Positions 9,986 through 23,975 of a stretch of DNA of 64,000 bases are shown here, one piece after another (within the stretch, counting starts at the first letter, position 1; each line of letters opens with the position of its first letter). The stretch lies in contig WGMB01000007.1 in NCBI GenBank assembly GCA_016125275.1, positions 372,001-436,000 of the forward strand, given 5' to 3'. Under the pieces are notes generated by a model. The model made no database searches. It saw only the letters and a program-made list of their open reading frames with translations, and was not told the origin of the DNA. The position numbers were made by a program, and so were the translations under genes. The DNA comes from Acidobacteriota bacterium. GTDB lineage: Bacteria > Acidobacteriota > Terriglobia > Bryobacterales > UBA6623.

Positions 9986-10914
9986 GGCAGCTTGGCGAGG
10001 GCGGCCGCGACGGCTCGGGCGGCGACCTCGTAGCCCTCGGCCGTGGCGTGGACGGGATCGACGAAGAGCCGTGCGCCGCCGGCGGCTCGAAAGGCTTCGA
10101 GCGGCTCCGCCACGACCGTCCCGGTCTCGCGGCCGATGGTCCGCAGCAGCGTCTGCCGGGGATGCTCCATACCGCCGTCCATCTGCACCGCCGAGGGCCA
10201 CACCACCAGCACAGGGACCGCTCCTGCCTTCCGCGCCGCCTCGACCATGGCGCGGATCTCGCTGCCGAACTCCTCCTCGGTCAGCCGCGGCCGGCCCTCG
10301 GGCAACACCCGGCGCAGCAGTCGCGTTACCCGGTGGCGGCTCATCTCACCGGCCCGCTCGGCCGCCATCAGCTCGCTATGCTCGGCGTCGGAGAGGTGGT
10401 CCCAGACCGTCCGCCCGTTCACCCAGAACGTGATCACCACCACGTCCGGCCTTTCGCCGGCGGCCAGGGCCTGCTCCAGAACCAGCCGCCCCTGGAAGGC
10501 CGAGTAGCCGGGGACCCCTGCGTTGATCGCGCGGACTCCCAACGCCTCACCCACCCGGGCTGGAAAGGCTTCCGCGTCGTTCACGGGGATGCCGAAGGTG
10601 CACGAGTCGCCCAGGAACAGCATGGTCTTGGCGCCTTCCGCGCCGGCGGGCGTGCGGCGGCGGCCTTCCGCGTCGGTGGAGACGCGGAAGGCGTGCTCGG
10701 CGTCGGGCAGCTTCTCCGACGCGGGGACCTCTTGCAGATTCGGCCGAAGCTTCCAGAACAGGAGGTCGTCGGGTTGAAAGATCTTCTCCGTGCCGGGGAA
10801 GACCTGCAGGTTCATGCGCAGAAAGTCCCAGCGCGCGTTGGAATCGGCCGCGGCGAGGGTCGCCGCCCCGAACGCCGCCGTCAACAACAGGCCGGCGCCG
10901 AGCAACCGCTTCAT
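9982..10914 (-). CDS. Secreted SGNH/GDSL hydrolase
   Basis: 310 residues with a signal peptide (MKRLLGAGLLLTAAFGAATLAAA). Block I of the SGNH fold is FLGDSCTFG with the nucleophile Ser; block II/III glycine and asparagine lie in INAGVPGYSAFQG and VVVITFWVNG; block V is FVDPVHATAEGY with Asp and His. It should be an esterase or O-acyl hydrolase acting outside the cytoplasm; the substrate is unknown. It sits between the membrane TPR protein and the cytochrome, with ATGA overlaps on both sides, so the three genes are almost certainly co-translated. SGNH proteins next to membrane proteins often act on polysaccharide O-acetyl groups, but that is inference here. Confidence 0.88.
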   Translation of the reverse strand: MKRLLGAGLLLTAAFGAATLAAADSNARWDFLRMNLQVFPGTEKIFQPDDLLFWKLRPNLQEVPASEKLPDAEHAFRVSTDAEGRRRTPAGAEGAKTMLFLGDSCTFGIPVNDAEAFPARVGEALGVRAINAGVPGYSAFQGRLVLEQALAAGERPDVVVITFWVNGRTVWDHLSDAEHSELMAAERAGEMSRHRVTRLLRRVLPEGRPRLTEEEFGSEIRAMVEAARKAGAVPVLVVWPSAVQMDGGMEHPRQTLLRTIGRETGTVVAEPLEAFRAAGGARLFVDPVHATAEGYEVAARAVAAALAKLP

Positions 10915-12842
10915 GGCTGAGGCTGTTCGGCCTGGAGCTGCGCCAGGGCGGATGCGGCTGCTTGCTGGGCGCGAGGATCGCCGGACGCCATGGCCGCATT
11001 GTAGTGCCAAGCGGCCTGTTCGAGCTGCCCCTGGTAGGCCAGTAGGCCGCCCAGGTTGATGTGCGCGGAGGCGTAGCCCGGGTCGAGCTCCAGCGCCCTG
11101 CGCAGCGCCGCAACGGCTTCGCCGTAACGGCCGAGCTTGCTGTAGGCCAACCCCAGCCCGGCTTGCGCCTGAGGCGAGCTCGGGTCGGACTCGAGCGCCA
11201 GGCGGTAGTGCTCCACCGCTTCTTCAGGGCGTTCCAGCCGCAGCAGGGCCTGCGCCAGGTTGGCATGGACCACTGACGGGCGAGCGGCCAGCGAGGCGGC
11301 GTCCCCCGGCATCAGCGGCGCGCTCGAACGCAGCGCCTGCGCGTCCTCGTCGCGGTAGAGGCTCAAGGCCTGCTCGTACTGAGCGACGGCCTCGTCCAGC
11401 CGACCCTGGTCATAGAGCACTCCGCCGAGGTTGTTGAACGCTTTGGACGATTCCGGCATCCGCTCGGCGGCGCGCTCAAAGGCGGCCTGCGCCTCTTCGA
11501 GCCGGCCGGACCGCCACAGGGCGTTGCCGAGGTTGTACTGCGCTTCGCCCAGCTCGGGCGCGGCGGCGACGAGGGATTCCGCCGTCGCCACGTCGTCGGC
11601 GGTTCGGCCGCGCTCCAGCCCCACGAACAGAACCAGCACGGCCCCGATGTAGGCGGCCTGCTGCCAGCCCTTGTTCTGCGGGGCGATACGGCGGGCCACC
11701 TGCCCCAGCCAGGCCTTGACGCGCGGGGGGGCCTCGCCGGCGTCCGCGATGTCCAAGTCGGCTCGGGTGCGCTTGTCGCGCATCTTCCAGATGAAGCCGT
11801 CGAAATAGTAGTGCATCGCGTTCGACGTCACCACGTAGGCGATCAGCAGGCGATGCAGCAGGGCGTCGGAGACGGCCGGCACAAAGTAGTTGATCGACCC
11901 GTAGGCCAGAATGAGTCCGGCGTACAGCGTGACCAGCGCCAAGCTGGGCTGAAACAGGAAGCGCACGAAGCCCGCCACCGGGCCGTTCTTGACCACCCGG
12001 TTGCGGTTGTAGGCCCACACGATGCCGTAGTACTGGATGCAGTGGAAGGCCGACCAGACCGTGAAGCCCACCAGAAAGTCGTCCAGCCCCACGTACAGGT
12101 ACCAGGTAGCCCCCAGGAAGATGCCGAGCATCGACAGCTTGCGCCAGCTCACCGGCCGCCCGGCGCGCCACTCGTTGAGGTGATAGCCGACGTAGGCCAG
12201 CGTGAGCAGCGCGCTGAGCCCCAGCAGCGCCGTCCGCCCGCCTGAGACAGCCCCGGCCGGAACCAGCGGCAGGCCGGTCTGATAGGCCCTGCTGAGCAGG
12301 TTGTGGCTGTAGTGCGGGCTCACGGCGATCAGCGCCACGTACCACGAGATCGCCAGACCCCAGTCCAGCCAGGACGTCGCCGCGTTCACGGCGCCGGCCT
12401 TGGAGTCGTAGATCCGCATGAAGCCGTAGTGCTGCATCAGTACGTGCCAGATGTCCCACAGCGCCACGAAGATCAGCAGCCCGTGGAGCTGCCGGTCGTC
12501 GAACCACAACGCCGTGAGGAAGATCAGCGGCGGCGCCAGCAGAAAGCGCCAGCGGAAGCGCTCGAACAGCTCCTTGTCGCCGTAAGCGCGCAGAAAGGTG
12601 GGAAAGTGGTGCCCGAAGGTGAAGAACGCCAGCAGGAAGATGGCGATCTCCCGCGAGCTGAAGGCCCCGCGCAGCGGCAGGAACACCGCCATCACCAGCA
12701 GCGGAGCGCCGATGAACAGCAGCAGATCGAGCGAGGGGCCGAGGATCCAGGCGCTGGGCGCCGGCGCGGCCGGGATCGCCGCGGCCGCGCCGGGGACGGC
12801 AACCTCCGTCCCGAGCGCCCTGTTCTTGCGAGTCTTCGCCAT
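10911..12842 (-). CDS. Polytopic membrane protein with conserved histidines and C-terminal TPR domain
   Basis: 643 residues. Residues ~30-420 form about ten membrane helices carrying paired histidines: FGHHFPTFLRAYGD, DIWHVLMQHYGFMRIYD, WSAFHCIQYYGIVWAYNRNR and SNAMHYYFDGFIWKMRDKR. This pattern suggests a membrane-bound metal site comparable in style to desaturase or Brp/Blh-like enzymes, but I cannot place it in a named family. Residues ~430-640 carry TPR units (EAQYNLGNALWRSGRLEEA, KAFNNLGGVLYDQGRLDEA, QAGLGLAYSKLGRYGEA). It overlaps the SGNH gene by ATGA. An activity needing electrons would fit the cytochrome encoded two genes downstream. Confidence 0.82.
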   Translation of the reverse strand: MAKTRKNRALGTEVAVPGAAAAIPAAPAPSAWILGPSLDLLLFIGAPLLVMAVFLPLRGAFSSREIAIFLLAFFTFGHHFPTFLRAYGDKELFERFRWRFLLAPPLIFLTALWFDDRQLHGLLIFVALWDIWHVLMQHYGFMRIYDSKAGAVNAATSWLDWGLAISWYVALIAVSPHYSHNLLSRAYQTGLPLVPAGAVSGGRTALLGLSALLTLAYVGYHLNEWRAGRPVSWRKLSMLGIFLGATWYLYVGLDDFLVGFTVWSAFHCIQYYGIVWAYNRNRVVKNGPVAGFVRFLFQPSLALVTLYAGLILAYGSINYFVPAVSDALLHRLLIAYVVTSNAMHYYFDGFIWKMRDKRTRADLDIADAGEAPPRVKAWLGQVARRIAPQNKGWQQAAYIGAVLVLFVGLERGRTADDVATAESLVAAAPELGEAQYNLGNALWRSGRLEEAQAAFERAAERMPESSKAFNNLGGVLYDQGRLDEAVAQYEQALSLYRDEDAQALRSSAPLMPGDAASLAARPSVVHANLAQALLRLERPEEAVEHYRLALESDPSSPQAQAGLGLAYSKLGRYGEAVAALRRALELDPGYASAHINLGGLLAYQGQLEQAAWHYNAAMASGDPRAQQAAASALAQLQAEQPQP

Positions 12843-12971: not shown

Positions 12972-14222
12972 TTACTTGAAGTTCGAGTAGTCGCCGACGT
13001 TCGAGTATTCTTCCGACGCCAACCCGGGCACATCCCAAACGATATCACCCGCCCGGATCGTCAGTGCGGCTGCGATGTTGCGGTCGCCGATCAGCTTCGC
13101 GCGGCCCGAATCCAGGAACGCGAACTCGCCCTTCTGCACTTCCAGCACGGCGATGTCGGCGATCGCGCCCTCGTCCAGGTTGCCCAGGTCGTAGCGGCGG
13201 ATGGCCTTGGCGGCGTTCACCGTCGTCCGCTCGATCACCTGGTCCAGCGGCATGCCCATGTTCAAGAACTTCGACATCACGTTGGTCAGCGTGGCGTGCG
13301 GCAGCATGATCGAACCCTTGTGGATGTCAGTCGAGATCGTGTCCGGCAAAAAGCCCTGCTTGATGGCCGGCACGGCGATGCGGAACCAGAGGCTGCCCGA
13401 GCCGTGGCCGACGTCGAAGAGGATGCCGCGCTGCCGAGCCTTCCACATGTAGCTCTGCACCCGCTCGTGCTCATCGAGCTGCGGCGTCAGCCGGCCATAG
13501 AAGTGGGTGTGGATGTTGCCCGGCTTCATGTGCTTCAGGATCAGGTCCTCGTAGCTGCGGCCTTCCTTCTGGCTGAAGTCGACCATCAGCACCGTGTTGG
13601 AGAGGTCAGCGGCCTTCACGGCGCGGTCCACGGCTTCCCAGTCCGCCGGCTGATAGTGCGCCGTCTTGATGCCGACGATGGTCTCCGGGTACTTGTTGAC
13701 CATGCGGACGGCCGCGTCCACGTCCATCTGGCTGACGTCGTTCTCCACCTCGGAGCCGTACATCCCCCCGCTGACGATGTTCAGCAGCGCCAGGATGCGG
13801 GTGGCCGCGTGGTCGATGGTGTTCTTCTTGAAGGCTTCGAAGGTCTTCGCGCCCGAGGTGCCGGCGTCGACCGCCGTGGTCACGCCGTTGCGCAGGCAGT
13901 TGTGGTCCGGGTTCACGCTCAGCCAAGGTCCGTGCACGTCGAAGTGGCCGTGGATGTCGATCAGGCCGGGCGTGACGTAGTAGTCGGAGACGTCCACGAC
14001 TTTTTTGGCGTGAGCGGGCGGCAGGTGCTCGGCGACGCGGGCGATGCGGTCGCCGATGATGGCGATGTCATAGCGTCCGTTGCGCTCGTTCTTGGGGTCG
14101 ATCACATGACCGCCCGTGAGCAGGATGTCGTAGATCACCGGCTGCTCGGCGGCCAGCGGCAGGGTCAGGCAAAGCGCGATCAGCGCCGTCCGGATGGGCG
14201 CGACCTTACTGAATCGAAACAT
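12972..14222 (-). CDS. Exported amidohydrolase/deacetylase family metallohydrolase (COG3964-like), copy 1
   Basis: 416 residues with an N-terminal signal (TALIALCLTLPLAAEQ). Amidohydrolase landmarks are YDILLTGGHVIDPKN at the beta-sandwich start, the metal motif GLIDIHGHFDVHG, the likely carbamylated-lysine region TIVGIKTAHY, then IHTHFYG, FDVGHGSGSLWF and the C-terminal metal aspartate in TISTDIH. The gene is paralogous to the next one upstream and overlaps it by 17 bases. COG3964 enzymes are normally cytoplasmic partners of SelA-like PLP enzymes; this one carries an export signal. The substrate is unknown; candidates are N-acetylated or cyclic amide derivatives of amino sugars or D-amino acids. 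Confidence 0.88.
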   Translation of the reverse strand: MFRFSKVAPIRTALIALCLTLPLAAEQPVIYDILLTGGHVIDPKNERNGRYDIAIIGDRIARVAEHLPPAHAKKVVDVSDYYVTPGLIDIHGHFDVHGPWLSVNPDHNCLRNGVTTAVDAGTSGAKTFEAFKKNTIDHAATRILALLNIVSGGMYGSEVENDVSQMDVDAAVRMVNKYPETIVGIKTAHYQPADWEAVDRAVKAADLSNTVLMVDFSQKEGRSYEDLILKHMKPGNIHTHFYGRLTPQLDEHERVQSYMWKARQRGILFDVGHGSGSLWFRIAVPAIKQGFLPDTISTDIHKGSIMLPHATLTNVMSKFLNMGMPLDQVIERTTVNAAKAIRRYDLGNLDEGAIADIAVLEVQKGEFAFLDSGRAKLIGDRNIAAALTIRAGDIVWDVPGLASEEYSNVGDYSNFK

Positions 14223-15432
14223 AGTTCCCCGCCTCCTGCCATTTCGGAAAACCGAGGCCTTCGAGATCGACCACGATCTCGCCGGCGCGCACGGTCAAGA
14301 TATTTTCGAGCTGCTCGGTGGCCAGCATCTTCTTCTTCCAGGCGTCGAACAGAGCGAACACGCCCGTCCGCAGCCGGAAAACGGCGATGTCGGCGTCCTT
14401 GCCCACGCTGAGCGTGCCGACCTCGGGGAACTTGCTGATCGCCTTGGCCGGGGCCACGGTCGAGCGCCGGATAGCGTCAGGCAGCTTCATGCCGAGCGCC
14501 ATCATCTTCGTGATGCAGTTCGGCATGTCGGATTTAGTGCCCATGATGCTCGAGTCGTGCAGATCGGTCGAGATCGTGTCCGGGTAGAAGCCGTCCTTGG
14601 TGGCGTTCACGGCCACCGGCCACATGAAGCTGCCGCCGCCGTGGCCCATGTCGAACAGCACGCCGCGCTTGCGGGCCTCCCAGACGTAGTCCTGCACTTT
14701 GCCGGTAAAGCGGCTGACGATCTCCACCTGCCGGTCGTTGAAGGCATGAGTGTGGATGTCGCCGGGGCGCATCTTCTCGAGCAGCTTCTCCTTGGAGTTA
14801 CGGCCCGTGTTGGTGAAGATCTTGTCGTCGATGATGACGGGCTTCTTGGACAGCCGGCCGGCCTCGATGGCGTTGTCGACCGCCGTCCAGCCGTAGCCGC
14901 CGAAGTGCGCCGTCTTGATGCCCACGATCAGGTCGGGGTACTCGGCCATCTTGGCGGCCGTCTTCACCGGGTCCATGTCCGCGGTGTTGCTCTCCCACTC
15001 GTGGACCATGCCGTGGCCGACGATGTTGATGAAGGCGTAGACGCGGGTCTTGACGCGGTCGATGATCGTCTTCTTGAAGTCCTCGAAGGTCATCCAGCCT
15101 GATCCGCCGCAATCGACGATGGTGGTGGTGCCGGCGTACAACGAGGTGTCGTCGGGAAAGATGGCCCCGGAGTAGCCGTAGACGTGGGCGTGCAGGTCCA
15201 CAAGGCCCGGCGTGACGATGGCGCCGGAGGCGTCGATCACTTTCTTGGCGTCGCCGGAGATGGATTCGGCCACCTGGGCGATCTTGCCGTCCTTGACGGC
15301 GACGTCCATCACGCCGTCGATGTCGTTGGCCGGATCGATGACCCGGCCGCCGCGAATCAAGATGTCATAGCTCTGCGCGGCGACGGGCGTCGCAGCCGCG
15401 AGCAGCAGCAGATACGGGAGCAATCTTCGCAC
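14206..15432 (-). CDS. Exported amidohydrolase/deacetylase family metallohydrolase (COG3964-like), copy 2
   Basis: 408 residues with a signal peptide (MRRLLPYLLLLAAATPVAAQ). Same architecture as its downstream neighbour: YDILIRGGRVIDPANDIDG, GLVDLHAHVYGYSG metal motif, LIVGIKTAHFGGYGW lysine, GDIHTHAFND, FDMGHGGGSFMW and TISTDLHDSS. The start is GTG at 15432, which shares one base with the stop codon of the PLP-enzyme gene upstream (TAGTG), indicating translational coupling. Retention of all metal-ligand positions in both copies suggests two active enzymes, perhaps with different substrates, rather than a decaying duplicate. Confidence 0.88.
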   Translation of the reverse strand: MRRLLPYLLLLAAATPVAAQSYDILIRGGRVIDPANDIDGVMDVAVKDGKIAQVAESISGDAKKVIDASGAIVTPGLVDLHAHVYGYSGAIFPDDTSLYAGTTTIVDCGGSGWMTFEDFKKTIIDRVKTRVYAFINIVGHGMVHEWESNTADMDPVKTAAKMAEYPDLIVGIKTAHFGGYGWTAVDNAIEAGRLSKKPVIIDDKIFTNTGRNSKEKLLEKMRPGDIHTHAFNDRQVEIVSRFTGKVQDYVWEARKRGVLFDMGHGGGSFMWPVAVNATKDGFYPDTISTDLHDSSIMGTKSDMPNCITKMMALGMKLPDAIRRSTVAPAKAISKFPEVGTLSVGKDADIAVFRLRTGVFALFDAWKKKMLATEQLENILTVRAGEIVVDLEGLGFPKWQEAGNYVSIQ

Positions 15433-16664
15433 TAAACTCTCTCCGTGAGGATGGCCCGGACGCGCTCGGCGATCTGCATCTCTTCGCCGTCCTGCAACAG
15501 GTAAGGGAAGATGCCGAGGCCTTTCCAGGGCGGATTGAACCGGCGCATGTCGCTGGCTTCGATCGACGGCTCGCCGCTGCGCAGCGCGTCGATCATCTGC
15601 TCGAGCGAGAGCCCGAGCTTGGCTTCATCCCACTGCACCGACAAGCGCGGCGAGTGGGAAAAGTCGTTGTTGGGAATCAGCTCGGTCACGACCGTGTCGA
15701 GCCCTTCCAGGCGCTTGGCGATGCGGTCGAGCTTGGCGTGGAACTCCGCTCGCTCGGCCTCGTGATCCTTCGCCAGATACTGTTCGACCGCCGAGAGCAG
15801 CCCGACGATCTCTTCCTTACCCACCTTGGCGATGCGGGCGAAGTAGTTGGCCGGGGCGGCGTTGGCGTAGGCCTTGCGGACCCACTCGCGCTTGCCCAGC
15901 AGCATGCCGCTGCACTGCGGACCATGGAGATTCTTACCGCCGGAGAAGGCCACCATGTCGACGCCCATCTTCACGAACTTGCCCAGGTTCTCGGCGGGCG
16001 GCACTTCCGCGGCGGCGTCGAGAATCACGGGCAGCCCGGCGGCGTGGGCGATCTCGAGGTACTCTTCCAGCTCGACCGCGCTGCCCAAGGTGTGGTGGCT
16101 GCGCACGAAGCAGCAGGCGGCCGTCTTGGCGTTGATCGCGGACCGCATCTGGTCCGCCGTCTCCACCTCCACCAGCTTGGCCCCGACCATGCGAAAAGCG
16201 TGATCGTAGGGGTTGCGGTGGCGCTTCTGGATGATGAATTCGTCCTTGGAGCCGGTCAGGTCCGGCAGCCGCTTCATCTTCTCCACGTCGTCGCCGACGG
16301 TGGCCGCGCAACTGGCCACGCACAGCGCCGCCGACGCTCCGCAGGTTACGAAGGCGTCCTCGGCGCCGGTCAGCTCGGCCAGCCGGGCGCCGACCTTCTC
16401 TTGCAGGTCGGCGATCTTGACGAAGCTCTTGGAGGCCGCCTCCATCGCCGCGTGTGTTTCGGCCGACATCAGCGAGCCGCTGAAGACCGTGATGGTGCCG
16501 ACGGCGTTGATGAAGGGGCGCACCCCCAGTCGCTGGTAAATGTCCACGGCCGCCGCGCCGGTGGTGGCCTCGGCGGCGCCGCCGGCGCAAGCGGCTCCGG
16601 CCAAGGGAGCGGCGGCGCCGGCTTGCAGAAAGCGGCGGCGGCTGACGGGATCGAGGCGCTTCAC
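15432..16664 (-). CDS. Tat-exported SelA-like PLP-dependent enzyme (COG1921), copy 1
   Basis: 410 residues. The N-terminus VSRRRFLQAGAAAPLAGAACAGG is a twin-arginine signal with a possible lipobox cysteine. The catalytic domain is a fold-type I PLP enzyme of the SelA/DgaE group: INAVGTITVFSGSLMS near the start, the aspartate in LPVILDAAAE, and the Schiff-base lysine in FSGGKNLHGPQCSG. DgaE-type relatives are ammonia lyases on sugar acids; true SelA is cytoplasmic, so this exported form is not a selenium transferase. The start is GTG 16664, with GGGAGG at good spacing. Exported PLP enzymes fit the Tat route, because the cofactor is loaded before export. Confidence 0.87.
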   Translation of the reverse strand: MKRLDPVSRRRFLQAGAAAPLAGAACAGGAAEATTGAAAVDIYQRLGVRPFINAVGTITVFSGSLMSAETHAAMEAASKSFVKIADLQEKVGARLAELTGAEDAFVTCGASAALCVASCAATVGDDVEKMKRLPDLTGSKDEFIIQKRHRNPYDHAFRMVGAKLVEVETADQMRSAINAKTAACCFVRSHHTLGSAVELEEYLEIAHAAGLPVILDAAAEVPPAENLGKFVKMGVDMVAFSGGKNLHGPQCSGMLLGKREWVRKAYANAAPANYFARIAKVGKEEIVGLLSAVEQYLAKDHEAERAEFHAKLDRIAKRLEGLDTVVTELIPNNDFSHSPRLSVQWDEAKLGLSLEQMIDALRSGEPSIEASDMRRFNPPWKGLGIFPYLLQDGEEMQIAERVRAILTERV

Positions 16665-16680
16665 GATGGAACCTCCCGAA

Positions 16681-17898
16681 TCAGGCTTTGCCTGCGTCGC
16701 GGAAGATTTCGCGCAACCGCCAGGCGACGATGCGCTCTTCTCCGGGATACATGTTGTAGCTGGCGAGGTTGATCTCGTCCGAGGCCGTGTTGACCTCGAT
16801 GCGCGGCTCGCCGTCGCTGAGCTTCTTGGCGCACTCGGCGTAGGTGAGACCCAGCTTCTTCTCATCCCACTGAATGCGCAGGTAGGGGATGGGGTGGCCG
16901 CCGGGGCCAGGAATGTAGACCTCCGTCTTCACCGACGGCGTGCCGGCGACTTCCCCTGCGATGTGCTCCATGAAGCCGCGCCAGAGCTTCTGGTCGGCGT
17001 CGTGGTCGCGCTGCATGTAGACCTCGACGGCCTTGAGCACCGCCATGATCTCCTCTTTGCCGACCTTCATGCCGCGCCCGATGGTGTCCGAGTATGGGTT
17101 GTTGTTCAGCGCGGCCGCCTCGACGAGCTCCTTGCGGCCCACGAGGATGCCCGAGGCCTGCGGGCCCCGCAGACCCTTGCCGCCGGAGAACGACACCAGG
17201 TCGAAGCCGCTCTCGACGATCTTCCACAGGTTGTCGTGCGGCGGCAGCTCGGCGGCGGCGTCGTTGAACACCGGAACGCCGGCCTTCTTGCCGGCCGCCA
17301 GGAAGTCCGCCTCGCGGATCTTGCCCTTGGGCTCGTAGATGTGGACGTAGAACAGCATCGCCGTCTTCGGTCCGATCGCCTTGTGCAGCTCTTCGAGAGT
17401 GTCGACCTCGACGATCTTGGCGCCGGACGCCCGGGCGGCATGGTCGAAGCCCATGCGGTGCTGCTTGACCATGATGACCTCGTTGGCCATGCCCTCGGTC
17501 TGCGGCAGCCGGTGGATCTTGTCCGGGTCCTTGCCGGCGATGCAGGCGGCGGTGGCGAGCTGGATGGCGCTGGCGGCCCCGGCGCTGACCAGCGCCGCGG
17601 GGACGCCGATGAGCTTGGCGATGCGCTCGCCGACCACCTGCTGCAGCTCGACCAGCGGCACAAAGCACTTCGACGCCTCGAACATCGCTTGGCGCGCGTC
17701 GTCCGACATCACCGAGCCGGTGAGGGTGGTGTAGGTGCCGGCGGCGTTGATCAGCGGCCGGATGCCGATCTGGCGGTAGTTCTCGCCATGGCGCGAAGCC
17801 AGGTAGGAGGCGTAGAGGTCGGTGGGCCGCAACGAACCGGCGGCGGCCAGCCAGAGCGGAGCGCCGAAGAGGTTCCTGCGAGAAAAGTACTGGGCCAT
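16681..17898 (-). CDS. Tat-exported SelA-like PLP-dependent enzyme (COG1921), copy 2
   Basis: 405 residues. Tat-like start FSRRNLFGAPLWLAAAGSL, then YRQIGIRPLINAAGTYTTLTGSVMSDDA, the aspartate region VPVFNDAAAELPP, and the PLP lysine in SFSGGKGLRGPQASG. It has the same fold and layout as the copy downstream, with about 16 bases between them. ATG 17898 is preceded by AAGGAG. The chain differs enough (for example IYEPKGKIREADFL instead of the other copy's HHTLGSAVELEEYL) that the two copies probably have different substrates. The context says it works with the two exported COG3964 amidohydrolases. Confidence 0.86.
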   Translation of the reverse strand: MAQYFSRRNLFGAPLWLAAAGSLRPTDLYASYLASRHGENYRQIGIRPLINAAGTYTTLTGSVMSDDARQAMFEASKCFVPLVELQQVVGERIAKLIGVPAALVSAGAASAIQLATAACIAGKDPDKIHRLPQTEGMANEVIMVKQHRMGFDHAARASGAKIVEVDTLEELHKAIGPKTAMLFYVHIYEPKGKIREADFLAAGKKAGVPVFNDAAAELPPHDNLWKIVESGFDLVSFSGGKGLRGPQASGILVGRKELVEAAALNNNPYSDTIGRGMKVGKEEIMAVLKAVEVYMQRDHDADQKLWRGFMEHIAGEVAGTPSVKTEVYIPGPGGHPIPYLRIQWDEKKLGLTYAECAKKLSDGEPRIEVNTASDEINLASYNMYPGEERIVAWRLREIFRDAGKA

Positions 17899-17906
17899 GA
17901 TGCTCC

Positions 17907-18305
17907 TTAGGAGAGAATTCGTTTGCGAAACTTTACGAGCAAGTAGATCTGCAGCAGCACAATGGGCGCGAATGGAACAGTGTTGTGCCAAAACTGGGAA
18001 TTCTTCGACTCCAATGTGTCAACCGTGACTCCTTGCTCCTGTAGCCAGGCGCCCATGTCACTGGGCCTTCCGATACCCTCGACCCAGATGAAATCACCAT
18101 TTGACAATCGACCCTCTAGTAAACCCTGGTCGAGGTAGATCGAGGCCCCGACGAGAGACCCTTCGGCGACCAGAGTGCGTAACTCAGCCTCATCAATCTG
18201 ATACTCAGCGGCCGAATTGATATTTGTGATCGCCTTCCACAGCAACACGAGCGTTACTGACATCACGATCGCGAATATCCAAAGCTTCCACTTGTTGACC
18301 CTCAT
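17907..18305 (-). CDS. Small two-helix membrane protein resembling the FtsH extracytoplasmic domain
   Basis: 132 residues: a membrane helix (KLWIFAIVMSVTLVLLW), a small alpha/beta domain, and a second helix (TVPFAPIVLLQIYLLVKF) ending RKRILS. The middle, IDEAELRTLVAEGSLVGASIYLDQGLLEGRLSNGDFIWVEG and then LQEQGVTVDTLES, follows the FtsH_ext pattern (short helix, strands around a G-x-L turn, VEV strand). No AAA or protease domain follows. Base composition is more AT-rich than its neighbours, so later acquisition is possible. It lies 9 bases from the PLP-enzyme gene. Similarity to FtsH_ext is by eye only and remote. Confidence 0.6.
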   Translation of the reverse strand: MRVNKWKLWIFAIVMSVTLVLLWKAITNINSAAEYQIDEAELRTLVAEGSLVGASIYLDQGLLEGRLSNGDFIWVEGIGRPSDMGAWLQEQGVTVDTLESKNSQFWHNTVPFAPIVLLQIYLLVKFRKRILS

Positions 18306-18329
18306 GCCCAGAGCGTACAGCTCGACCCG

Positions 18330-19541
18330 CTAGGCGCGCTGGAAGAAGCAGTTCCGCGGCGCCTTGTATTCGATCTTGAGCTCCGGCGTCTCCACGCGGC
18401 GCTTCTTTCCGCGCGACTGGAACAGGAACGCCAGAGTTCCGGTGGTCGTCAGCGTGCGCTCGATGGGATAGAGCGGCTTGCCGGTGACGAAGAGCTCCTC
18501 GATGACGTGCGTGAGCCCGTCGAAGTGGGTGAGCTGCCGGTGGTCCGGCACCGGCCCGAAGTGCGTGGAGACCGTCTTGCCGTCGATCTCGCAAGCGAAG
18601 TCCCAGCTCGACAGGTGGCCGTTGAGCAGGTAGGCGGCGGCTTCCAGCCCGTCGCGATAGGTGACCAGGAACAGCACCGGCTGCTTGCAGTTGTCCTCGG
18701 GCTTGCCCGGCTTGGTGTTGGGGCTGCGGCCGGCGGCGGCTTCGAGCAGCGGCTTGGACCAGGCGCCCGGCCCGTCGCGCCAGCGCCACACGGCGTCGCC
18801 TTCCAGCATCTCCACCGCGGCGACGCCGGTCTCGCCGCCTTCGCGCCGCTCGACCATGCACTGCAACGATTCCAGCGTGTGGAAGCCGTAGGCGTCGATG
18901 CCGCCGTAGCCGGTCTGCACGGCGCGGCGAATCTTGGCGCCGTAGGGAATCTCGAGCTCCGGCGTGCGGACGGTCACCGGGATGGACGAGCCGGCGGCGA
19001 ACGGAAAGCCCAGCTCGCGCGACCAGTCGTACATCTCCTTGGCCTTGTCCCAGTCATAGGACAGGTGCTTGTCGCTGAAGACCGGCACGCTGCGGCCGGA
19101 CTTGCGGAAGACGTCCACGATGCCCGACAGCAGCCGGTGCCGCGGGTACATCTTCTGGCCGAGCTCGTTCTCGGGATAGTCGCCGTGCTCGCCGATCAGC
19201 AGCACCGCATCCACGTCCAGCGCGTCCTTGCCGCGCTCCAGAGCGCCGGCGATGGTGGACTGCATGCTGTAGCCGTAGCGCTGCGCCAGGGCCACGGCCT
19301 GGTCGTTGAACGGCACCTGGTCCAGATACATCGAAACCACCCGCGTGCGCGGCGCCTGGAAGACGCCGTTGGGGTAGTAGCCGTCGAACAGGCGTGTGCA
19401 GATCACGTCCGCGTGCGACATGTGGCGGAACTCGGTGATGACGGCGCCGACGGAAGGCTTCTTCTGCTGGGCCGGAAGCGCTGCAGCGCCGGCGGCCAGA
19501 GAAAGAAAGCCGCGGCGGGAGAGATGGGAACTGTGAGGCAA
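18330..19541 (-). CDS. Tat-signal exported protein of unknown function
   Basis: 403 residues with a twin-arginine signal (LSRRGFLSLAAGAAALPA). Later segments include GAVITEFRHMSHADVICTRLFDGY, LLIGEHGDYPENELGQ, PVFSDKHLSYDWDKAKEMYDW, AGSSIPVTVRTPELEIP and GYGGIDAYGFHTLESLQCMVERR. Similar uncharacterised proteins seem common in Planctomycetes and Acidobacteriota; I know no reaction for them. The start is TTG 19541, with GGAGGG in good position and the Tat motif right behind it. The frame stays open for 600 codons further upstream, but that part mirrors the plus-strand gene. It is the first gene of the minus-strand block running to 8198. Confidence 0.78.
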   Translation of the reverse strand: MPHSSHLSRRGFLSLAAGAAALPAQQKKPSVGAVITEFRHMSHADVICTRLFDGYYPNGVFQAPRTRVVSMYLDQVPFNDQAVALAQRYGYSMQSTIAGALERGKDALDVDAVLLIGEHGDYPENELGQKMYPRHRLLSGIVDVFRKSGRSVPVFSDKHLSYDWDKAKEMYDWSRELGFPFAAGSSIPVTVRTPELEIPYGAKIRRAVQTGYGGIDAYGFHTLESLQCMVERREGGETGVAAVEMLEGDAVWRWRDGPGAWSKPLLEAAAGRSPNTKPGKPEDNCKQPVLFLVTYRDGLEAAAYLLNGHLSSWDFACEIDGKTVSTHFGPVPDHRQLTHFDGLTHVIEELFVTGKPLYPIERTLTTTGTLAFLFQSRGKKRRVETPELKIEYKAPRNCFFQRA

Positions 19542-19688: not shown

Positions 19689-21329
19689 GTGACGCCCCCC
19701 GCGCTGTGCCTGCTCGACGGGCCGTCCGGCTTGGCGGCCCCTCTGGCCGCGGCGTTGGCCGACGCGCTCGAGCGGCCGTTGGGCTTTCGGCCGGCGGCGA
19801 GCGCCTCCATCGAGCCGGCGGACGAGACCTACATCCTGCCGTGCAAGCTCGAGTTCGGCTTGTTCGACCGGGAGGCCCTTTCGCAGCGGCTGGCCGAGGC
19901 GCGCCGGGCCCATCCGCAGGCGCGCTTCTTCCACGACGACGTGGACCTGGGGCATCCGCTGCTGGTGCAGGCTTTCGCCGAGAAGGCCATGGAGGCCTTG
20001 GCCGCCTGGGGCGCGCCGCGGGAGCGCGTGGGCCTGCTGGCGGTGGGACAGGGTGAAGGCGATCCCTCCAGCCGTGCGCAGGTCTACCGCTGGATGCGGC
20101 TGCTGTGGGAACAGCTCGGAGTCGCGCGCGGCGAGGTCGCCTTCCTGCGCAACCCCATGCCGTTTCTGCGCGCCGAGCTCGAGCAGTTGCCGCCGCTGAG
20201 CTGGGTCGTGATTCCGCTGCTGTGGGAGCCCGGCGAGCGGCTGGAACATCTGCGCACGATCGTCGAGGACCACGTCCGCCACAAGCCCGAGGTCGCCGGG
20301 ATGTTTCGGGTGGCGGAACCGCCGGGCGCGCACCCGGCCCTGGTCGGCTGGCTGGCGCAGCGGGCGCTGGACCTGTGGCGCAGCCGCCGCCAGGCCGAAG
20401 CGGGCCGCGCGCCCTCTCCCAAGCGCGCCGTGCTGTCCACGCCGAGAAGGCTGGGCTCGCCCGCGACCGGCCTGGTCGGCGATTGCCGCAACGCCGACGA
20501 GCTGCGCGCGCTGCTGCCGGAAGAGCTGCTGGACGCGCCGCTGGTCTTCGTCAAGCCCACCTGGCACGGCTACGCCGCCGGGACCTATACCGACCCCGCA
20601 GCGCTCGACGCCTTGCTGACGGCCCTGCCCGGCAAGGTCGTGCTGCTCGAAGGCCACACCTCCAGCCGCCACGCGGCCCCGGACGCCGGCTTCGACTGGG
20701 AGACCGAAGCCCGCGCGCACCGCGCCTGGATCGCCGCTCAGGAGCAAGAGTACCTGCGCAAGACCGGCCTGACGGACGTGCTGGTCCAGCACAAGGCGCA
20801 GTACGTGAACGTCACCGAAGCCTACTGGGACGCCGACGAGCCCGACGCCGAGAGCTTCATCCCGCCGATCGTGCGCGAGCATGTCGGCGCGCCCCTGCTG
20901 AGCTGCGCGCGGTTCAAGGGCCCCACGCGGCTGTCGCTGTCGAACCTCTTCGGCCTGCTGCCGGACCCTCTGCGCTCCCGCTGGCACGGGCCCAACATTA
21001 CGTATTTCGCCCGGGTCTGCTGCGGCGTCGCCCGCCGGTGGGACGCCGTGACCCCTTTGTACGGCCTCGTCGAAGGGCTCAGCGCGGCCGTCAAGTGGGA
21101 CCGCCGGGGGCTGTATCGCAGCCGCTGGGGCAACTACGACCTCATCCCCCAGCCGGGGGTGGCCACGCTGAGCCGGGGAGTCGCCGGAGCGGATGTGTTG
21201 GCCGCCCGGCTCCAAGGGCAGAGCGTCGGCCGCAGCGGGTTTTTTGACGTCGTTCGCGCTGAGTTCGAGATTCCCGATATCGCTGAAGAGATGGAACTTC
21301 CGCTCGATTGGATCCGGCGTTTCGCCTGA
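19689..21329 (+). CDS. Fusion of CbiX-like chelatase repeats with a DUF362-like domain
   Basis: About 546 residues. Residues ~40-230 look like one partial and one full CbiX/sirohydrochlorin-chelatase unit: LGHPLLVQAFAEKAMEAL ends the first; VGLLAVGQGEGDPSSRAQVYRWMRLL through VVIPLLWEPGERLEHLRTIVEDH and GAHPALVGWLAQRALDL makes the second. The catalytic HGS of CbiX reads GQGEG here, so metal insertion may be lost. Residues ~280-540 resemble DUF362: LVFVKPTWHGYAAGTYTDPAALDALL, KVVLLEGHTSSRHAA, DVLVQHKAQYVNVTE. GTG 19689 is the likely start, with AAGGA very close; the longer frame from 19608 looks non-coding. Divergent from the Tat gene. Confidence 0.7.
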   Translation: MTPPALCLLDGPSGLAAPLAAALADALERPLGFRPAASASIEPADETYILPCKLEFGLFDREALSQRLAEARRAHPQARFFHDDVDLGHPLLVQAFAEKAMEALAAWGAPRERVGLLAVGQGEGDPSSRAQVYRWMRLLWEQLGVARGEVAFLRNPMPFLRAELEQLPPLSWVVIPLLWEPGERLEHLRTIVEDHVRHKPEVAGMFRVAEPPGAHPALVGWLAQRALDLWRSRRQAEAGRAPSPKRAVLSTPRRLGSPATGLVGDCRNADELRALLPEELLDAPLVFVKPTWHGYAAGTYTDPAALDALLTALPGKVVLLEGHTSSRHAAPDAGFDWETEARAHRAWIAAQEQEYLRKTGLTDVLVQHKAQYVNVTEAYWDADEPDAESFIPPIVREHVGAPLLSCARFKGPTRLSLSNLFGLLPDPLRSRWHGPNITYFARVCCGVARRWDAVTPLYGLVEGLSAAVKWDRRGLYRSRWGNYDLIPQPGVATLSRGVAGADVLAARLQGQSVGRSGFFDVVRAEFEIPDIAEEMELPLDWIRRFA

Positions 21330-21510: not shown

Positions 21511-22953
21511 ATGGAAAGCTCGATGTTCTGGCCGCTGATGGCCTTTGTGGCGCTGTCGTTTCTCGTCGGCGTCTACACCTCCAAATTCGTCCACGGCTCG
21601 GGAAAGCGCTTCCTGGTCTGCGGCAAGTCGATGCCCTTTCTGGTCGTCGGCACGACGCTGGTGGCGCAAGCGCTCGACGGCAACGCAACCCTGGGGAACA
21701 CCGGGCTGACCTTCGAGGGCGGATTCTGGGCGGGCATCTCGCTGCCGCTGGGGTTGGGGTTGAGCCTGTTCATGGTGGGCCGCTTCCTGGCCGCGCCGCT
21801 GAACAAGATGGACCTGATCACGCTGCCGGAGTTCTTCTTCCGCCGCTACGGCCGCCACGTGGAGCTTCCGGTCGCCCTCATCACCTTCGTTTCGTTCTCC
21901 ATTCTGCTGGCGGGCAATCTGGCCGCCATGGGCTGGATTCTCTCCGTGGTGGCGGGCTGGGACTACGCCACGGCGCTGATCATCGGCACGGCGGTGCTGT
22001 TCACCTACACCATCGCCGGCGGCTTGTACGCCGCCATCTGGACGGACTTCGTGCAGATCTACATCGCCATCAGCGGCTTTCTGCTGCTGGCCGGCTGGAT
22101 TCTGCTGACCCAGGACTGGCAGGGCGCGATCGCCTCGTTGCCGGCCTCCTACACGGACATGAGCGGGCTGACGACGCTGGAAGGCGGCGGCTTGCTCAAC
22201 GTCTCGGTCATCGTGTCGCTGGTCTTCGGTAACTGCATGGCGCTGGACTTCATGGAGCGGGTCTTCTCGGCCAAGTCCGGGGCGACCGCCGCCCGGGCCT
22301 GCTACTACGCCGGCATCCTGACGATCGTGGCCGGTCTCACGGCGACCTTCGCCGGCCTGGTGGCGCCGTCGATCGTCCAGGGCGTCAGCGACAGCCGCAT
22401 GGTGCTGCCGACGCTGGTTTCCAGCGGCAATGCGCCCTACATCGTGGGCCTGATGGTGATGATCGGCGTGGTCGGCGCCTCCATGTCCACCTGCAACGGC
22501 GCCATCCTGGCGACCTCGGCGGTGGTGGCGCACAACATCATTCAACGTTGGAGCGGCACGACCTTCGATGACCACAAGCTGCTGCGGCTGACCCGCATGG
22601 TCGCCGTGCCGATGACCGTCGGCGGGGCCGTGTTCGCCTGGGTCCGGCCGGAGCCGGGCGTGCTGCTGGTGCTGGCGTTCGACATCGTCTTCGCCGGCTG
22701 CGTCGTGCCGTTGTTCGCGGGCGTTTATTGGCAGCGCGCCAACGCCACCGGCGCGCTGGCCTCCATCATCCTCGGCACCGCCGCCCGCATCGTGATGAAC
22801 TTCGTGACCCCGGAGTCGCTGGCCGGGCTGGACACCTTGCTTCCGCCGGTGATCAGTCTGCTCGTGTTCGTGCCCGCCTGTCTGATGGCGGATGGCCGGG
22901 AGCCCAGCCGCCACCACGTGGTCGGCCGCCCGGCGATGGCTGAAGGAGATTGA
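21511..22953 (+). CDS. Sodium:solute symporter family protein
   Basis: 480 residues with about 13 membrane helices; SSS (SLC5) features include the early unwound-helix region LDGNATLGNTGLTFEGGFWAG and TYTIAGGLYAAIWTDFVQIYI, the hallmark segment of this family. It should import an organic solute with Na+; the substrate is unknown. ATG 21511 and ATG 21523 are both possible; GGAAAG sits before the second. The next gene follows within 9 bases with its ribosome site (GAAGGAGA) inside this gene's end, so the four genes to 26111 form an operon. Confidence 0.92.
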   Translation: MESSMFWPLMAFVALSFLVGVYTSKFVHGSGKRFLVCGKSMPFLVVGTTLVAQALDGNATLGNTGLTFEGGFWAGISLPLGLGLSLFMVGRFLAAPLNKMDLITLPEFFFRRYGRHVELPVALITFVSFSILLAGNLAAMGWILSVVAGWDYATALIIGTAVLFTYTIAGGLYAAIWTDFVQIYIAISGFLLLAGWILLTQDWQGAIASLPASYTDMSGLTTLEGGGLLNVSVIVSLVFGNCMALDFMERVFSAKSGATAARACYYAGILTIVAGLTATFAGLVAPSIVQGVSDSRMVLPTLVSSGNAPYIVGLMVMIGVVGASMSTCNGAILATSAVVAHNIIQRWSGTTFDDHKLLRLTRMVAVPMTVGGAVFAWVRPEPGVLLVLAFDIVFAGCVVPLFAGVYWQRANATGALASIILGTAARIVMNFVTPESLAGLDTLLPPVISLLVFVPACLMADGREPSRHHVVGRPAMAEGD

Positions 22954-22961
22954 TCGACGCC

Positions 22962-23975
22962 ATGAAACCGCCGAAGAGCGTTCTCACGCAAGCTCTGACT
23001 CTGCTGGCCATGGTCGGCCTGACGCTGGCCGTGATGGCGCAGGCGCCCGAGCCCGATGGGGCCGGCGTCCGCCCCGGCGTGCTGCCGGAGAAGTGGCTGG
23101 TCGGGGGGCCCAACTGCATGGAGGTCCCCGAGTTCCAGGTCCACGAGTACAACCCGGACTTCTACATCCTGCGGCAGTCCGGCTGCTCGCACTACGAGAA
23201 GCCGTTCCTCTATCTGCTGTTCGGCCAGGACCGGGCGCTACTGCTCGACACCGGGGCCGGCATGCCCGACGTCAAGCGCGTGGTGATGGAGACCGTCGAC
23301 AAGTGGTGCGCCCGCAACGGCAAGGAATCGATTCCGCTGGTCGTCGCCCACACCCACAATCACTCCGACCACGTCGCCGGCGACAAACAGTTCCAGGGCG
23401 TGCCGAACGTGACCTTCGTCGGCGCCGACGTCGACACGGCCGTCGCCTACTGGGGCTTCAAGAAGTGGCCCGAGGACGTCATCGAGTACGACCTGGGCGG
23501 CCGCGTGCTCGACATCTTCGGCATCCCCGGCCACCAGCGGGCGTCGATTGCCGTGTATGACCGCGAGAGCGGCGTGCTCATCACCGGCGATCTGATCTAC
23601 CCGGGCCGGCTCTACATCGACGACGCGGCGGCCTTCGAGGCCTCCCTCGAACGGATGCTCAAGTTCACCGAGGGCAAGATCGTCACGCACTTGCTCGGCT
23701 GCCACATCGAGCAGACGGACACGCCGTATCTGGAGTACCCGATCGGCTCGATCTACCAGCCGAACGAGCACGCTCTCGACCTGAACCGCGGCGTCCTCTA
23801 CGAGCTGCAGGAGATCGTCCGGAACAAGAAGGGCGAGCTGCAGCGGGTCGCCTTGCGCGACTTGACGATCTACCCGGTCAACGCCGAGGTGTGGGGCGCG
23901 CTGCGAGCCAAGCGCAAGGAAGTGGAAGAGCGGCAGCGGCTCACTCAGTTCAAGCAACCCGGAGGAGCGGAATGA
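22962..23975 (+). CDS. Exported MBL-fold metallo-hydrolase
   Basis: 337 residues with a signal peptide or anchor (LTQALTLLAMVGLTLAVMAQA). The metallo-beta-lactamase fold is clear: LLDTGAGMPDVK, the zinc motif HTHNHSDH, the later histidine in FGIPGHQ, the bridging aspartate in ITGDLIYPG, and HLLGCHIEQ. It should be an extracytoplasmic hydrolase; the substrate is not evident. ATG 22962 is preferred over the in-frame TTG 22950 because the GAAGGAGA site is too near the TTG. It ends in an ATGA overlap with the FG-GAP lipoprotein, so the two are coupled. Confidence 0.9.
   Translation: MKPPKSVLTQALTLLAMVGLTLAVMAQAPEPDGAGVRPGVLPEKWLVGGPNCMEVPEFQVHEYNPDFYILRQSGCSHYEKPFLYLLFGQDRALLLDTGAGMPDVKRVVMETVDKWCARNGKESIPLVVAHTHNHSDHVAGDKQFQGVPNVTFVGADVDTAVAYWGFKKWPEDVIEYDLGGRVLDIFGIPGHQRASIAVYDRESGVLITGDLIYPGRLYIDDAAAFEASLERMLKFTEGKIVTHLLGCHIEQTDTPYLEYPIGSIYQPNEHALDLNRGVLYELQEIVRNKKGELQRVALRDLTIYPVNAEVWGALRAKRKEVEERQRLTQFKQPGGAE

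Follow-up and report, generated by a model that had tools for sequence, protein, structure and literature searches.

What might two amidohydrolases and two PLP enzymes, encoded in one bacterial gene run and all bearing export-type leaders, do outside the cytoplasm? Deamination by PLP enzymes and removal of the imine by RidA are regarded as cytoplasmic chemistry. The run lies in a 64,000-nt stretch of DNA, the window, from an Acidobacteriota bacterium (Bryobacterales; UBA6623; assembly GCA_016125275.1, contig WGMB01000007.1, positions 372,001-436,000 of the forward strand). From here on, AH stands for a COG3964-type amidohydrolase, PLP for a SelA/DgaE-like PLP enzyme, and DGL for D-glucosaminate-6-P ammonia-lyase. 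The four AH and PLP genes are tightly packed on the minus strand at window positions 12972-17898, with two further frames upstream:

12972-14222, minus strand: AH1, COG3964-type amidohydrolase with a Sec-like leader (MFRFSKVAPIRTALIALCLTLPLAAEQ)
14206-15432, minus strand: AH2, COG3964-type amidohydrolase with a Sec-like leader (VRRLLPYLLLLAAATPVAAQ), GTG start
15432-16664, minus strand: PLP1, SelA/DgaE-like PLP enzyme with a twin-arginine leader (VSRRRFLQAG...), GTG start
16681-17898, minus strand: PLP2, SelA/DgaE-like PLP enzyme with a twin-arginine leader (FSRRNLFGAP...)
17907-18305, minus strand: small ORF of 132 aa, two hydrophobic segments flanking a domain like the FtsH N-terminus
18330-19541, minus strand: Tat-signal protein, TTG start, function unassigned

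The gene positions in the preliminary description of this locus were correct, and its account of two AH and two PLP paralogues in one run was borne out in families, coordinates, and leaders. AH1 and AH2 are 43% identical and PLP1 and PLP2 40%. The N-termini read VSRRRFLQAGAAAPLAG in PLP1, FSRRNLFGAPLWLAAAG in PLP2, and LSRRGFLSLAAGAAA in the Tat-signal protein. A gene of the SSS family (21511-22953) lies nearby on the opposite strand, with one gene between. A promoter and terminator scan returned 0 promoters and 2 terminator-like sites against 4.1 expected, and tRNA and Rfam scans of the window found none.

Both amidohydrolases matched the NF006689 profile above its curated cut-off of 371 (AH1, 389.8 bits; AH2, 387.8 bits). 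All six aligned positions that we take to be the metal positions (H, H, K, H, H, D) are kept in both, and in an alignment by position each is kept in 55 to 57 of 57 aligned members. The solved COG3964-like amidohydrolases 8je0, 2ogj, 8wzy, and 2ics gave whole-domain matches to AH1 (E ≤1.3e-32); in the alignment with AH1, 2ogj has all metal positions, whereas in 8je0 Asn replaces the His of the GHG motif. PLP1 and PLP2 matched Pfam SelA and scored below the cut-offs of TIGR01437 (224.9 and 168.9 bits; cut-off 385.3) and NF047797 (204.9 and 162 bits; cut-off 600). By these curated cut-offs, they are DgaE-related proteins that fall outside the DgaE family. The Schiff-base Lys and pyridine-N Asp are kept in both, and the two differ from each other at positions important in DGL: the DGL His-His pair is HH in PLP1 and Y/E in PLP2, and the phosphate-site Arg positions read R/S/Y in PLP1 and Y/N/Y in PLP2, so that PLP1 lacks two of these Arg and PLP2 all three (Arg332 and Arg346 are replaced in both; Arg301 is kept in PLP1 only). 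Among 106 PLP homologues aligned in DGL numbering, Lys213 is kept in 105 and Asp189 in 106, compared with 0 for Arg346 (6 gaps), 17 for Arg332, 16 for Arg301, 15 for His162, and 8 for His163. The PLP of locus L021, which a score limit kept out of this table, was read apart from it and retains Lys, Asp, and Arg346 and lacks the His pair. In the accessible text on DGL, the H163A enzyme retains activity. The earlier claim that active-site residues are kept in all four copies thus holds for cofactor and metal positions and does not extend to the whole substrate site, where PLP2 is without the His pair and phosphate-site Arg are lost. This loss fits a non-phosphorylated substrate, as would be expected outside the cytoplasm.

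A search for the four-gene set in related genomes, carried out where tandem PLP or PLP-AH matches stood among the matches listed, found it in two (G005 and G009), which represent one other genus of the family. Gene order (PLP2-PLP1-AH2-AH1), orientation, and leaders are kept there at 61-71% identity; against the syntenic copies in L177 and L178, AH1 is 63-64% and AH2 61-62% identical, and PLP2 is 67% identical to its syntenic copies. The nearest relative of AH1 in the tree is a paralogue from its own genome (L037:8465-9715). That genome encodes 14 PLP and 12 AH paralogues (26 genes), and across the order the PLP family was present in at least 90 of 120 genomes (E≤1e-30) and the AH family in at least 103 of 120 (E≤1e-60). 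We therefore rejected the idea that the operon is a local oddity.

The reading that we favor, with moderate confidence and from the sequences, is of a two-step catabolic module that operates outside the cytoplasm and is encoded by the four genes as two paralogous pairs. Judging from its family, the AH would deacylate an N-acyl, probably β-hydroxy, α-amino acid; by analogy with DGL, the PLP enzyme, having crossed the membrane folded and cofactor-bound via the Tat system, would then eliminate water and next ammonia, giving a 2-keto-3-deoxy acid via an enamine/imine. Neighbors at other loci suggest that RidA would hydrolyze the imine, after which the keto acid might be imported or split by an aldolase, for which Granulicella and some Bacteroidota have an RraA-like candidate. 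Each of the two AH/PLP pairs probably has its own substrate, the two being related compounds or stereoisomers.

On this reading, its chemistry would resemble that of the cytoplasmic ong and dga pathways, yet the window enzymes do not qualify as members of either. The accessible text of PMC9537276 describes the ong pathway for GlcNAc1A, the oxidized chitin monomer, in Pseudoalteromonas, where growth on GlcNAc1A was lost upon deletion of the gene for the deacylase, the PLP deaminase, or RidA; it resembles the module in combining an amidohydrolase-superfamily deacylase, a PLP deaminase yielding 2-keto-3-deoxygluconate, RidA needed in vivo, and an SSS transporter. However, OngB and OngC are predicted there to be cytoplasmic, whereas the window enzymes carry leaders; OngC is of fold-type III, unlike the SelA/DgaE-like window PLPs, and OngB is D-aminoacylase-like rather than a COG3964 AH. 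DGL (7lc0), according to the accessible part of PMC9529869, shares with the window PLPs a related PLP family and fold, the cofactor Lys and Asp, and, in PLP1, the His pair, but acts on a phosphorylated substrate supplied via the PTS and has no leader in the solved chain.

Gene neighborhoods were compared in 80 related loci holding 88 PLP frames, with genes taken from a home-made codon-usage caller, which in L182 (G071) found neither gene placed there by the PLP and AH family searches. In Fisher tests of 13 families, in which genes of related loci were treated as independent, RidA (35 of 522 near genes versus 2 of 221 far genes; p=0.0002) and AH (34 near versus 2 far; p=0.0003) were the significantly enriched neighbors. 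Stricter score limits gave 33 versus 2 for RidA (p=0.0004) and 30 versus 1 for AH (p=0.0002), with one or the other in 42 of the 80 loci and both in 15. RidA stood within 4 genes of a PLP in 31 of 80 loci (30 with the stricter score) and is absent from the window operon. Not significant near PLPs in these loci (near, far) were RraA (8, 1), GSDH (6, 2), enolase-superfamily (3, 1), lactonase (3, 3), DHDPS (3, 0), M81 (3, 0), a second RidA type (8, 0; p=0.058), and DUF362 (7, 0; p=0.083), even though several profiles in this group came from genes chosen for their proximity to PLPs, a bias in their favor; lactonase and RraA were accordingly rejected as general PLP neighbors. AH/PLP teams with export-type leaders, often with RidA, also recur in other phyla, which suggests, from sequence, that nitrogen may be stripped from an amino compound outside the cytoplasm.

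The likeliest substrate class is, tentatively, the 2-acylamino-2-deoxy-aldonates, i.e. oxidized amino sugars resembling GlcNAc1A. Since the wider neighbors were not significant, this assignment draws on a single operon, a single fusion, and the count of lactonases in the window's own genome. The cultured Granulicella tundricola has a single run RraA-PLP-RidA-PLP-AH-lactonase-BBE (FAD) oxidase-hypothetical (short)-GH35, in which the FAD oxidase has no visible leader; in G055, a 710-aa lactonase-AH fusion adjoins PLP and RidA; and among the 15 SMP-30 lactonase matches in the genome that contains the window, 10 are strong, and 3 of these have a PLP or AH gene no more than 6 kb away (expected 0.31; p=0.004). 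A more far-reaching version, which we regard as doubtful, is that Acidobacteriota and Bacteroidota might oxidize amino sugars (or related glycans) fully outside the cytoplasm, using a glycosidase, a sugar oxidase forming a lactone, a lactonase, the COG3964 deacylase, a Tat-exported SelA-like ammonia-lyase, and RidA and an RraA-type aldolase that are also exported, the former as protection from the reactive enamine; deamination and C-C cleavage would then precede uptake, and the paralogue expansion would reflect many stereo-variants of the substrate. Chitin products made by the organism's own LPMO were rejected as substrate, because no LPMO_10 was found in its genome.

N-Acyl-D-amino acids are the next likeliest substrate class, and the best-surviving alternative, although an unlikely one, is that the same exported two-step chemistry acts on these or on small peptides in cell-wall or peptide turnover. 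In L143, which belongs to the same G005 contig as L177, and in L178, the gene immediately upstream of the four-gene set encodes an M20 peptidase. Genes for M81 (L031, L077, and, by our own HMM, L099) and M19 (L077, L099) occur near PLP or Tat-protein genes; in addition, OngB is described as closest to D-aminoacylases in the accessible text of PMC12017989. Such peptidase neighbors are few, however, with M81 in 3 of 80 loci, and both the lactonase-AH fusion and the operon with lactonase, oxidase, and GH35 genes suggest sugar acids instead.

The fold of PLP1 brings in a second, less probable alternative. Its AlphaFold model (pLDDT 85) was nearest to DGL and Cap15 among solved folds, and SelA chains matched too, over residues 37-410. 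By Z, Cap15 (8t7j; 39.7, rmsd 2.4 over 353 residues) came ahead of DGL (37.7), and PLP2 scores the two almost equally by sequence (DGL, 120.3 bits; Cap15, 118.6 bits). Cap15 acts on a β-hydroxy-α-amino acid in antibiotic biosynthesis in Streptomyces, according to the accessible text of PMC7497351 and PMC6384614, and the Tat-exported PvdN (PMC6206403, in part) offers a comparison, so the PLPs could be O2-dependent monooxygenase-decarboxylases that convert an α-amino acid to an amide for hydrolysis by the AH. We consider this improbable, as PLP1 is nearer DGL by sequence (163.9 versus 138.6 bits), Foldseek ranked DGL first, the DGL His pair is kept in PLP1, and the enriched partner RidA belongs to an imine/enamine-hydrolyzing family.

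Returning to the two-step module, its pairing of AH with PLP is less evident in the window's own genome, where 2 of the 12 AH genes (those of the window) lie within 6 kb of a PLP and most copies are unpaired. RidA genes there stand near PLPs (3 of 10 within 6 kb; expected 0.19; p=0.002), and 0 of 10 are within 6 kb of an AH. The scatter would suit AH and PLP working in separate pathways, sharing an exported lifestyle and genome expansion and nothing more, but the order and orientation kept in relatives and the enrichment of AH beside PLP in the 80 loci make this very improbable.

The export-type N-termini reported for all four enzymes were upheld at the motif level. With a home-made rule (an RR motif and, after it, a hydrophobic stretch without charges), leaders were seen in PLP1, PLP2, and the Tat-signal protein; Pfam TAT_signal matched only below its cut-off. 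Of the own-genome PLP frames, 12 of 14 have a Tat-like leader by the rule and 13 by eye, the thirteenth (L024:10187-11797) reading STRRQWLGSTAAIAALLA and only L021 being truly without one. Across the 80 loci, 73 of 88 PLP frames scored as Tat-like; the same rule picked out 55 of 666 among the other called genes there, and 2 of 85 internal windows. Some PLP frames scored as having none, e.g. in L120 and L110, still show RR leaders. Among AHs, signal-like leaders occur on 11 of 12 in the own genome and on 26 of the 32 found across the 80 loci. Under a slightly looser rule without its own background, 32 RidA proteins from these loci gave 23 Tat-like, 4 Sec-like, and 5 without a leader, and four more, unscored, have RR leaders visible by eye; one RidA (L024:7971-8426) exceeded the NCBIfam Tat-signal cut-off (21.2 versus 16.7 bits). 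In the own genome, 5 of 10 RidA proteins were scored, 2 as signal-like, and among the other 5 the three beside PLPs have visible RR leaders. RidA with Tat-like leaders is thus encoded elsewhere in this genome, outside the window operon. A RidA-PLP pair in Rhizobium has no visible leaders. That the leaders do not export, leaving the enzymes cytoplasmic or membrane-anchored, is the least probable alternative of all: the motif-level nature of the evidence leaves room for it, but the excess of such leaders on PLP frames, their persistence in orthologues 61-71% identical, a TatC match in the own genome (E 2e-59), and a pLDDT under 50 for residues 6-38 of the PLP1 model all speak against it.

The preliminary description called an extracytoplasmic PLP step unusual, a view qualified by published Tat-dependent precedents: the accessible text of PMC6206403 describes PvdN and PtaA as PLP enzymes that Tat exports in the folded state and that function in the periplasm. 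By these precedents, the window system belongs among known kinds of exported PLP enzyme, although PvdN and PtaA serve biosynthetic tailoring (pyoverdine maturation) in pseudomonads, and the accessible text names no amidohydrolase/RidA module alongside them. The statement that no described pathway has this set still stands, in that no paper on an exported amidohydrolase/SelA-like/RidA set was found among the matches listed in the open-licence literature (titles and abstract beginnings), where subscription papers are mostly missing. If the proposed module is real, the occurrence of leader-bearing AH-RidA-PLP sets in at least two phyla would place part of nitrogen catabolism outside the cytoplasm, which would affect both cofactor economy and the sharing of products, and G. 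tundricola, as a cultured carrier, makes the pathway testable.

The Tat-signal protein had been said to head the run, but it is absent from the loci with the conserved four-gene set and was rejected as a core member. Of the 11 copies in its own genome, 3, counting the one in the window, have a PLP or AH gene within 6 kb (expected 0.35). It matched no Pfam or NCBIfam family beyond the signal, and Pfam on 15 members of its family gave TAT_signal only, plus one hit at E 0.24; AlphaFold with two sequences gave a pLDDT of 33. Without its leader, it matched the Gfo/Idh profile at 54.8% probability compared with ≤0.6% for 10 control families, and on this profile match it is possibly a degenerate Gfo/Idh/MocA-like Rossmann protein. 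The small ORF (17907-18305) is absent from the conserved loci, was not called by the codon-usage caller, and had no Pfam match up to E 5 and only a chance NCBIfam hit (0.083). It is without the AAA and protease parts of FtsH, and aligns at 24-30% identity with the beginning of frames of 645-697 aa at 11 places in 11 genomes, its own included; of two such frames that were read, both contain HEAGH and one GPPGTGKT. Its GC content is 0.54-0.57 (in windows) compared with 0.62-0.73 around it.

The preliminary description placed two amidohydrolases and two SelA/DgaE-like PLP enzymes in one run, and this is borne out by both the coordinates and the family matches. The run comprises six genes, given here in reading direction:

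18330-19541, minus strand: Tat-signal protein with a TTG start, first in the run
17907-18305, minus strand: small ORF between the Tat-signal protein and PLP2
16681-17898, minus strand: PLP2, DgaE-like/Pfam SelA PLP enzyme
15432-16664, minus strand: PLP1, DgaE-like/Pfam SelA PLP enzyme
14206-15432, minus strand: AH2, NF006689, COG3964-type amidohydrolase (AH)
12972-14222, minus strand: AH1, NF006689, COG3964-type amidohydrolase, last in the run

The run is compact, with adjacent genes overlapping or at most 24 bases apart and a Shine-Dalgarno-like sequence ahead of five of the six starts. In a family-profile search, AH1 and AH2 exceeded the curated NF006689 cut-off; PLP1 and PLP2 hit the DgaE-like families TIGR01437/NF047797 with scores under the DgaE cut-offs and also matched Pfam SelA. 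The window's own genome (7.55 Mb, completeness 97.6%) holds 14 full-length DgaE-like PLP genes and 12 AH genes above the family cut-off.

Among 120 genomes of the order, the PLP family was found in 90 (E ≤ 1e-30) and the AH family in 103 (E ≤ 1e-60), and the closest named relatives of PLP1 among the matches listed were MAGs of Bryobacterales and other Acidobacteriota. The preliminary description had suggested looking for the same gene set elsewhere and placing both pairs in trees. The order PLP2-PLP1-AH2-AH1 is present, among the matches listed, in two genomes of one other genus, G009 and G005, the latter assigned to the window genome's family. The genes downstream of the run in the window (10911-12842 and 9982-10914) also follow the set in G009 (54-57% identical), and G007, of the same genus as G005 and G009, keeps PLP1, PLP2 and those flanks with no AH at the locus. 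In the PLP tree, PLP1 clusters with the copies of loci L176, L177 (G005) and L178 (G009) with support of 0.56, or 0.98 once loci L089 and L090 are included, and PLP2 clusters with the L177 and L178 copies (0.98). Because PLP1 and PLP2 each group with separate copies from the other genus, the PLP duplication predates the split of these genera. In the AH tree, AH2 clusters with the syntenic copies (0.84; 1.0 including two own-genome paralogues at locus L037), and AH1 lies nearest to an own-genome L037 paralogue (0.98), with the syntenic copies next (1.0). An AH adjoining a PLP gene was also confirmed in G055, G069, G063, G108, and G043. Head-to-tail COG3964 amidohydrolase arrays occur in L186:3669-10201 (five genes), L037:7198-11035 (three), and L034:7580-10134 (two), mostly with signal-like leaders and with no PLP gene in the stretch read.

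Leaders were scored with a home-made Tat rule (RR, then an uncharged 13-residue stretch of mean hydropathy ≥0.9), which was positive in 12 of the 14 own PLP frames and in 73 of 88 PLP frames from the best 80 of at least 573 confirmed PLP-gene loci; the background was 55 of 666 other called genes of those 80 loci and 2 of 85 internal PLP windows. A signal-like start was seen in 11 of the 12 own AH and in 26 of 32 AH of the best 80 of at least 573 loci, contig ends truncating three of the remainder; because the looser Sec rule is also positive for 258 of those 666 genes, it is weak evidence for AH if taken alone. AH2 was labeled Tat by the rule only through VRR at the start of a Sec-like leader. 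The copies of all four enzymes at L143 (same contig as L177) and L178, 61-71% identical to those of the window, retain such leaders, and TatC was found in the own genome. From these leaders, we infer that PLP1, PLP2, AH1, and AH2 are exported.

The solved chains nearest in sequence to PLP1 and PLP2 were D-glucosaminate-6-P ammonia-lyase (DGL, 7lc0) and the PLP-dependent monooxygenase-decarboxylase Cap15 (8t7j), and those nearest to AH1 were 8je0, 2ogj, 8wzy, and 2ics. With a predicted PLP1 model (21 input sequences; pLDDT 85, below 50 at residues 6-38), DGL ranked top in Foldseek, and VIA-align 2 returned Z scores of 39.7 for Cap15 and 37.7 for DGL, both well above SelA (26.1). Residues were tabulated in DGL numbering for 106 aligned PLP homologues (13 own, 88 from the best 80 of at least 573 loci, and 5 from L176-L178, the L143 and L177 copies being duplicates within the table). 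Lys213 is conserved in 105 and Asp189 in all 106. At the phosphate site, no homologue has Arg346 (6 gaps), and Arg301 is conserved in 16 and Arg332 in 17; the DGL study describes phosphate docked close to these three arginines (PMC9529869). His162-His163 of DGL is a minority feature, as His162 is conserved in 15 and His163 in 8 of the 106. The claim that active-site residues are kept in all four enzymes holds for the cofactor Lys and Asp, present in PLP1 and PLP2, and for the metal positions, all retained in AH1 and AH2 in the alignment, and fails for His162-His163, which PLP1 retains and PLP2 replaces with Tyr-Glu. Judged by these residues, the four enzymes look catalytic and their substrate looks non-phosphorylated, and PLP1 and PLP2 are probably not interchangeable.

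Within four genes of PLP, in the best 80 of at least 573 loci, RidA and AH each occur in 31 loci; 46 loci have at least one of the two and 16 have both. Of the 13 families with a near match, two were significant when genes at least six positions away served as the within-locus background: RidA (p = 0.0002) and AH (p = 0.0003). Not significant were another type of RidA (p = 0.058), DUF362 (p = 0.083, seven loci), RraA, GSDH, M81, SGL, DHDPS, enolase-superfamily, M19, SSF, and the Tat protein. The 30-bit AH limit admits other amidohydrolases (e.g. at L091); stricter limits (AH 250 bits, RidA 60) gave AH in 27 of these best 80 loci (p = 0.0002), RidA in 30 (p = 0.0004), either in 42, and both in 15. 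The records of these loci are titled as Acidobacteriota or as Bacteroidota (Saprospiraceae, Flavobacteriaceae, Cyclobacteriaceae, Chitinophaga), apart from a handful of others (e.g. Balneolaceae, Planctomycetota, Poribacteria), and the order AH-(RraA)-RidA-PLP is seen repeatedly in Bacteroidota. RidA hydrolyzes enamine/imine products of PLP enzymes. The family is described as including enamine/imine deaminases (PMC9537276). Of 32 RidA scored in the best 80 of at least 573 loci, 23 have a Tat-like and 4 a Sec-like leader, and four unscored ones also have RR leaders; the own genome has ten RidA genes, and the three situated no more than 6 kb from a PLP gene all show RR leaders by eye. A RidA predicted to be exported, next to a PLP enzyme with the same predicted location, speaks for an extracytoplasmic elimination reaction. 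A Rhizobium johnstonii RidA-PLP pair, neither member of which has a visible leader, lies amid ABC-importer genes and is likely a cytoplasmic counterpart. Frames L170:6819-8057 and L171:7121-8284 each combine a hydrophobic leader with three RidA domain matches, and a CbiX-like protein at 19689-21329 of the window matches DUF362 with E 0.14.

On plasmid pACIX902 of Granulicella tundricola, a cultured strain, a nine-gene run in a single direction (L190 6251-16931) has the order RraA-PLP-RidA-PLP-AH-lactonase-BBE oxidase-short protein-GH35. By eye, RR leaders are present on both PLP, RidA, the lactonase, and the short protein, Sec-like leaders on AH and the GH35 glycosidase, and a hydrophobic N terminus on RraA; no leader is visible on the BBE-type FAD oxidase. 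A single 710-aa frame of G055 (L179:5475-7607), with a Sec-like leader and located beside PLP and RidA, joins an SMP-30 lactonase domain to a COG3964 amidohydrolase that follows it. Three of ten strong SMP-30 lactonases of the own genome lie within 6 kb of PLP or AH; lactonase is not enriched near PLP in the best 80 of at least 573 loci. The Granulicella operon, the G055 fusion, and the own-genome lactonases point to a lactone/aldonate preceding the amidohydrolase step.

In the published ong pathway, GlcNAc1A is deacylated and a PLP enzyme converts GlcN1A to 2-keto-3-deoxygluconate, a RidA and an SSS transporter being required, as described in PMC9537276. The window-type set could share this logic of deacylation followed by PLP deamination, with other enzyme families and on the opposite, proposed extracytoplasmic, side of the membrane. 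On balance, we favor such ong-like chemistry located outside the cytoplasm, chemistry and place taken jointly, on the direct basis of sequence families, leaders, conservation, residues, and neighbors; from these we infer the reaction, the substrate, and the order of steps. An acylamino-aldonate is a tentative candidate for the substrate. Several points count against this reading: the sugar-acid evidence is drawn from few loci, the majority of AH and PLP genes in the own genome are unpaired, RidA is absent from the window operon, and no LPMO (LPMO_10) was found in the own genome. Also against it, the fold of Cap15 is described as capable of O2-dependent decarboxylation (PMC7497351, PMC6384614), and PvdN, a Tat-exported PLP enzyme, is reported to carry out related chemistry (PMC6206403). 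We consider it improbable that the PLP enzymes are O2-dependent decarboxylases like Cap15. Neither the enzyme families nor the export of PLP enzymes by Tat is new, and a PLP step outside the cytoplasm is not as unusual as had been claimed. The accompanying remark that no described pathway with this set was known agrees with the open-licence literature, where no paper on an exported amidohydrolase/RidA/PLP module was among the matches listed.

The Tat-signal protein heads the run in the window (18330-19541), as described, and was not found at the loci conserving the four-gene set. It has 11 copies in the own genome, three of them, including that of the window, within 6 kb of PLP or AH, and of the 41 genomes searched, 15 gave a match, the own one among them. 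It has no assigned family and no Pfam family; its profile without the leader gave a weak Gfo/Idh/MocA match (54.8% probability; ten control families ≤0.6%). Its family is in tandem in L087:1754-4267, with a further copy in L029:2469-3758, and at several loci (L077, L070, L029) its members have a gene of the M81, M19, or enolase-superfamily type in the vicinity. The small ORF (17907-18305), which had no match in G005, G007, or G009 and lies within the run in a stretch of low GC, is a stand-alone likeness of the FtsH membrane-anchored N terminus (two hydrophobic segments and an intervening domain) without the AAA or protease part. Near the operon, window 22962-23975 encodes a metallo-beta-lactamase-fold protein paralogous to that of L034:15827-16741, which lies ~6 kb from two amidohydrolases; both paralogues have Sec-like leaders.
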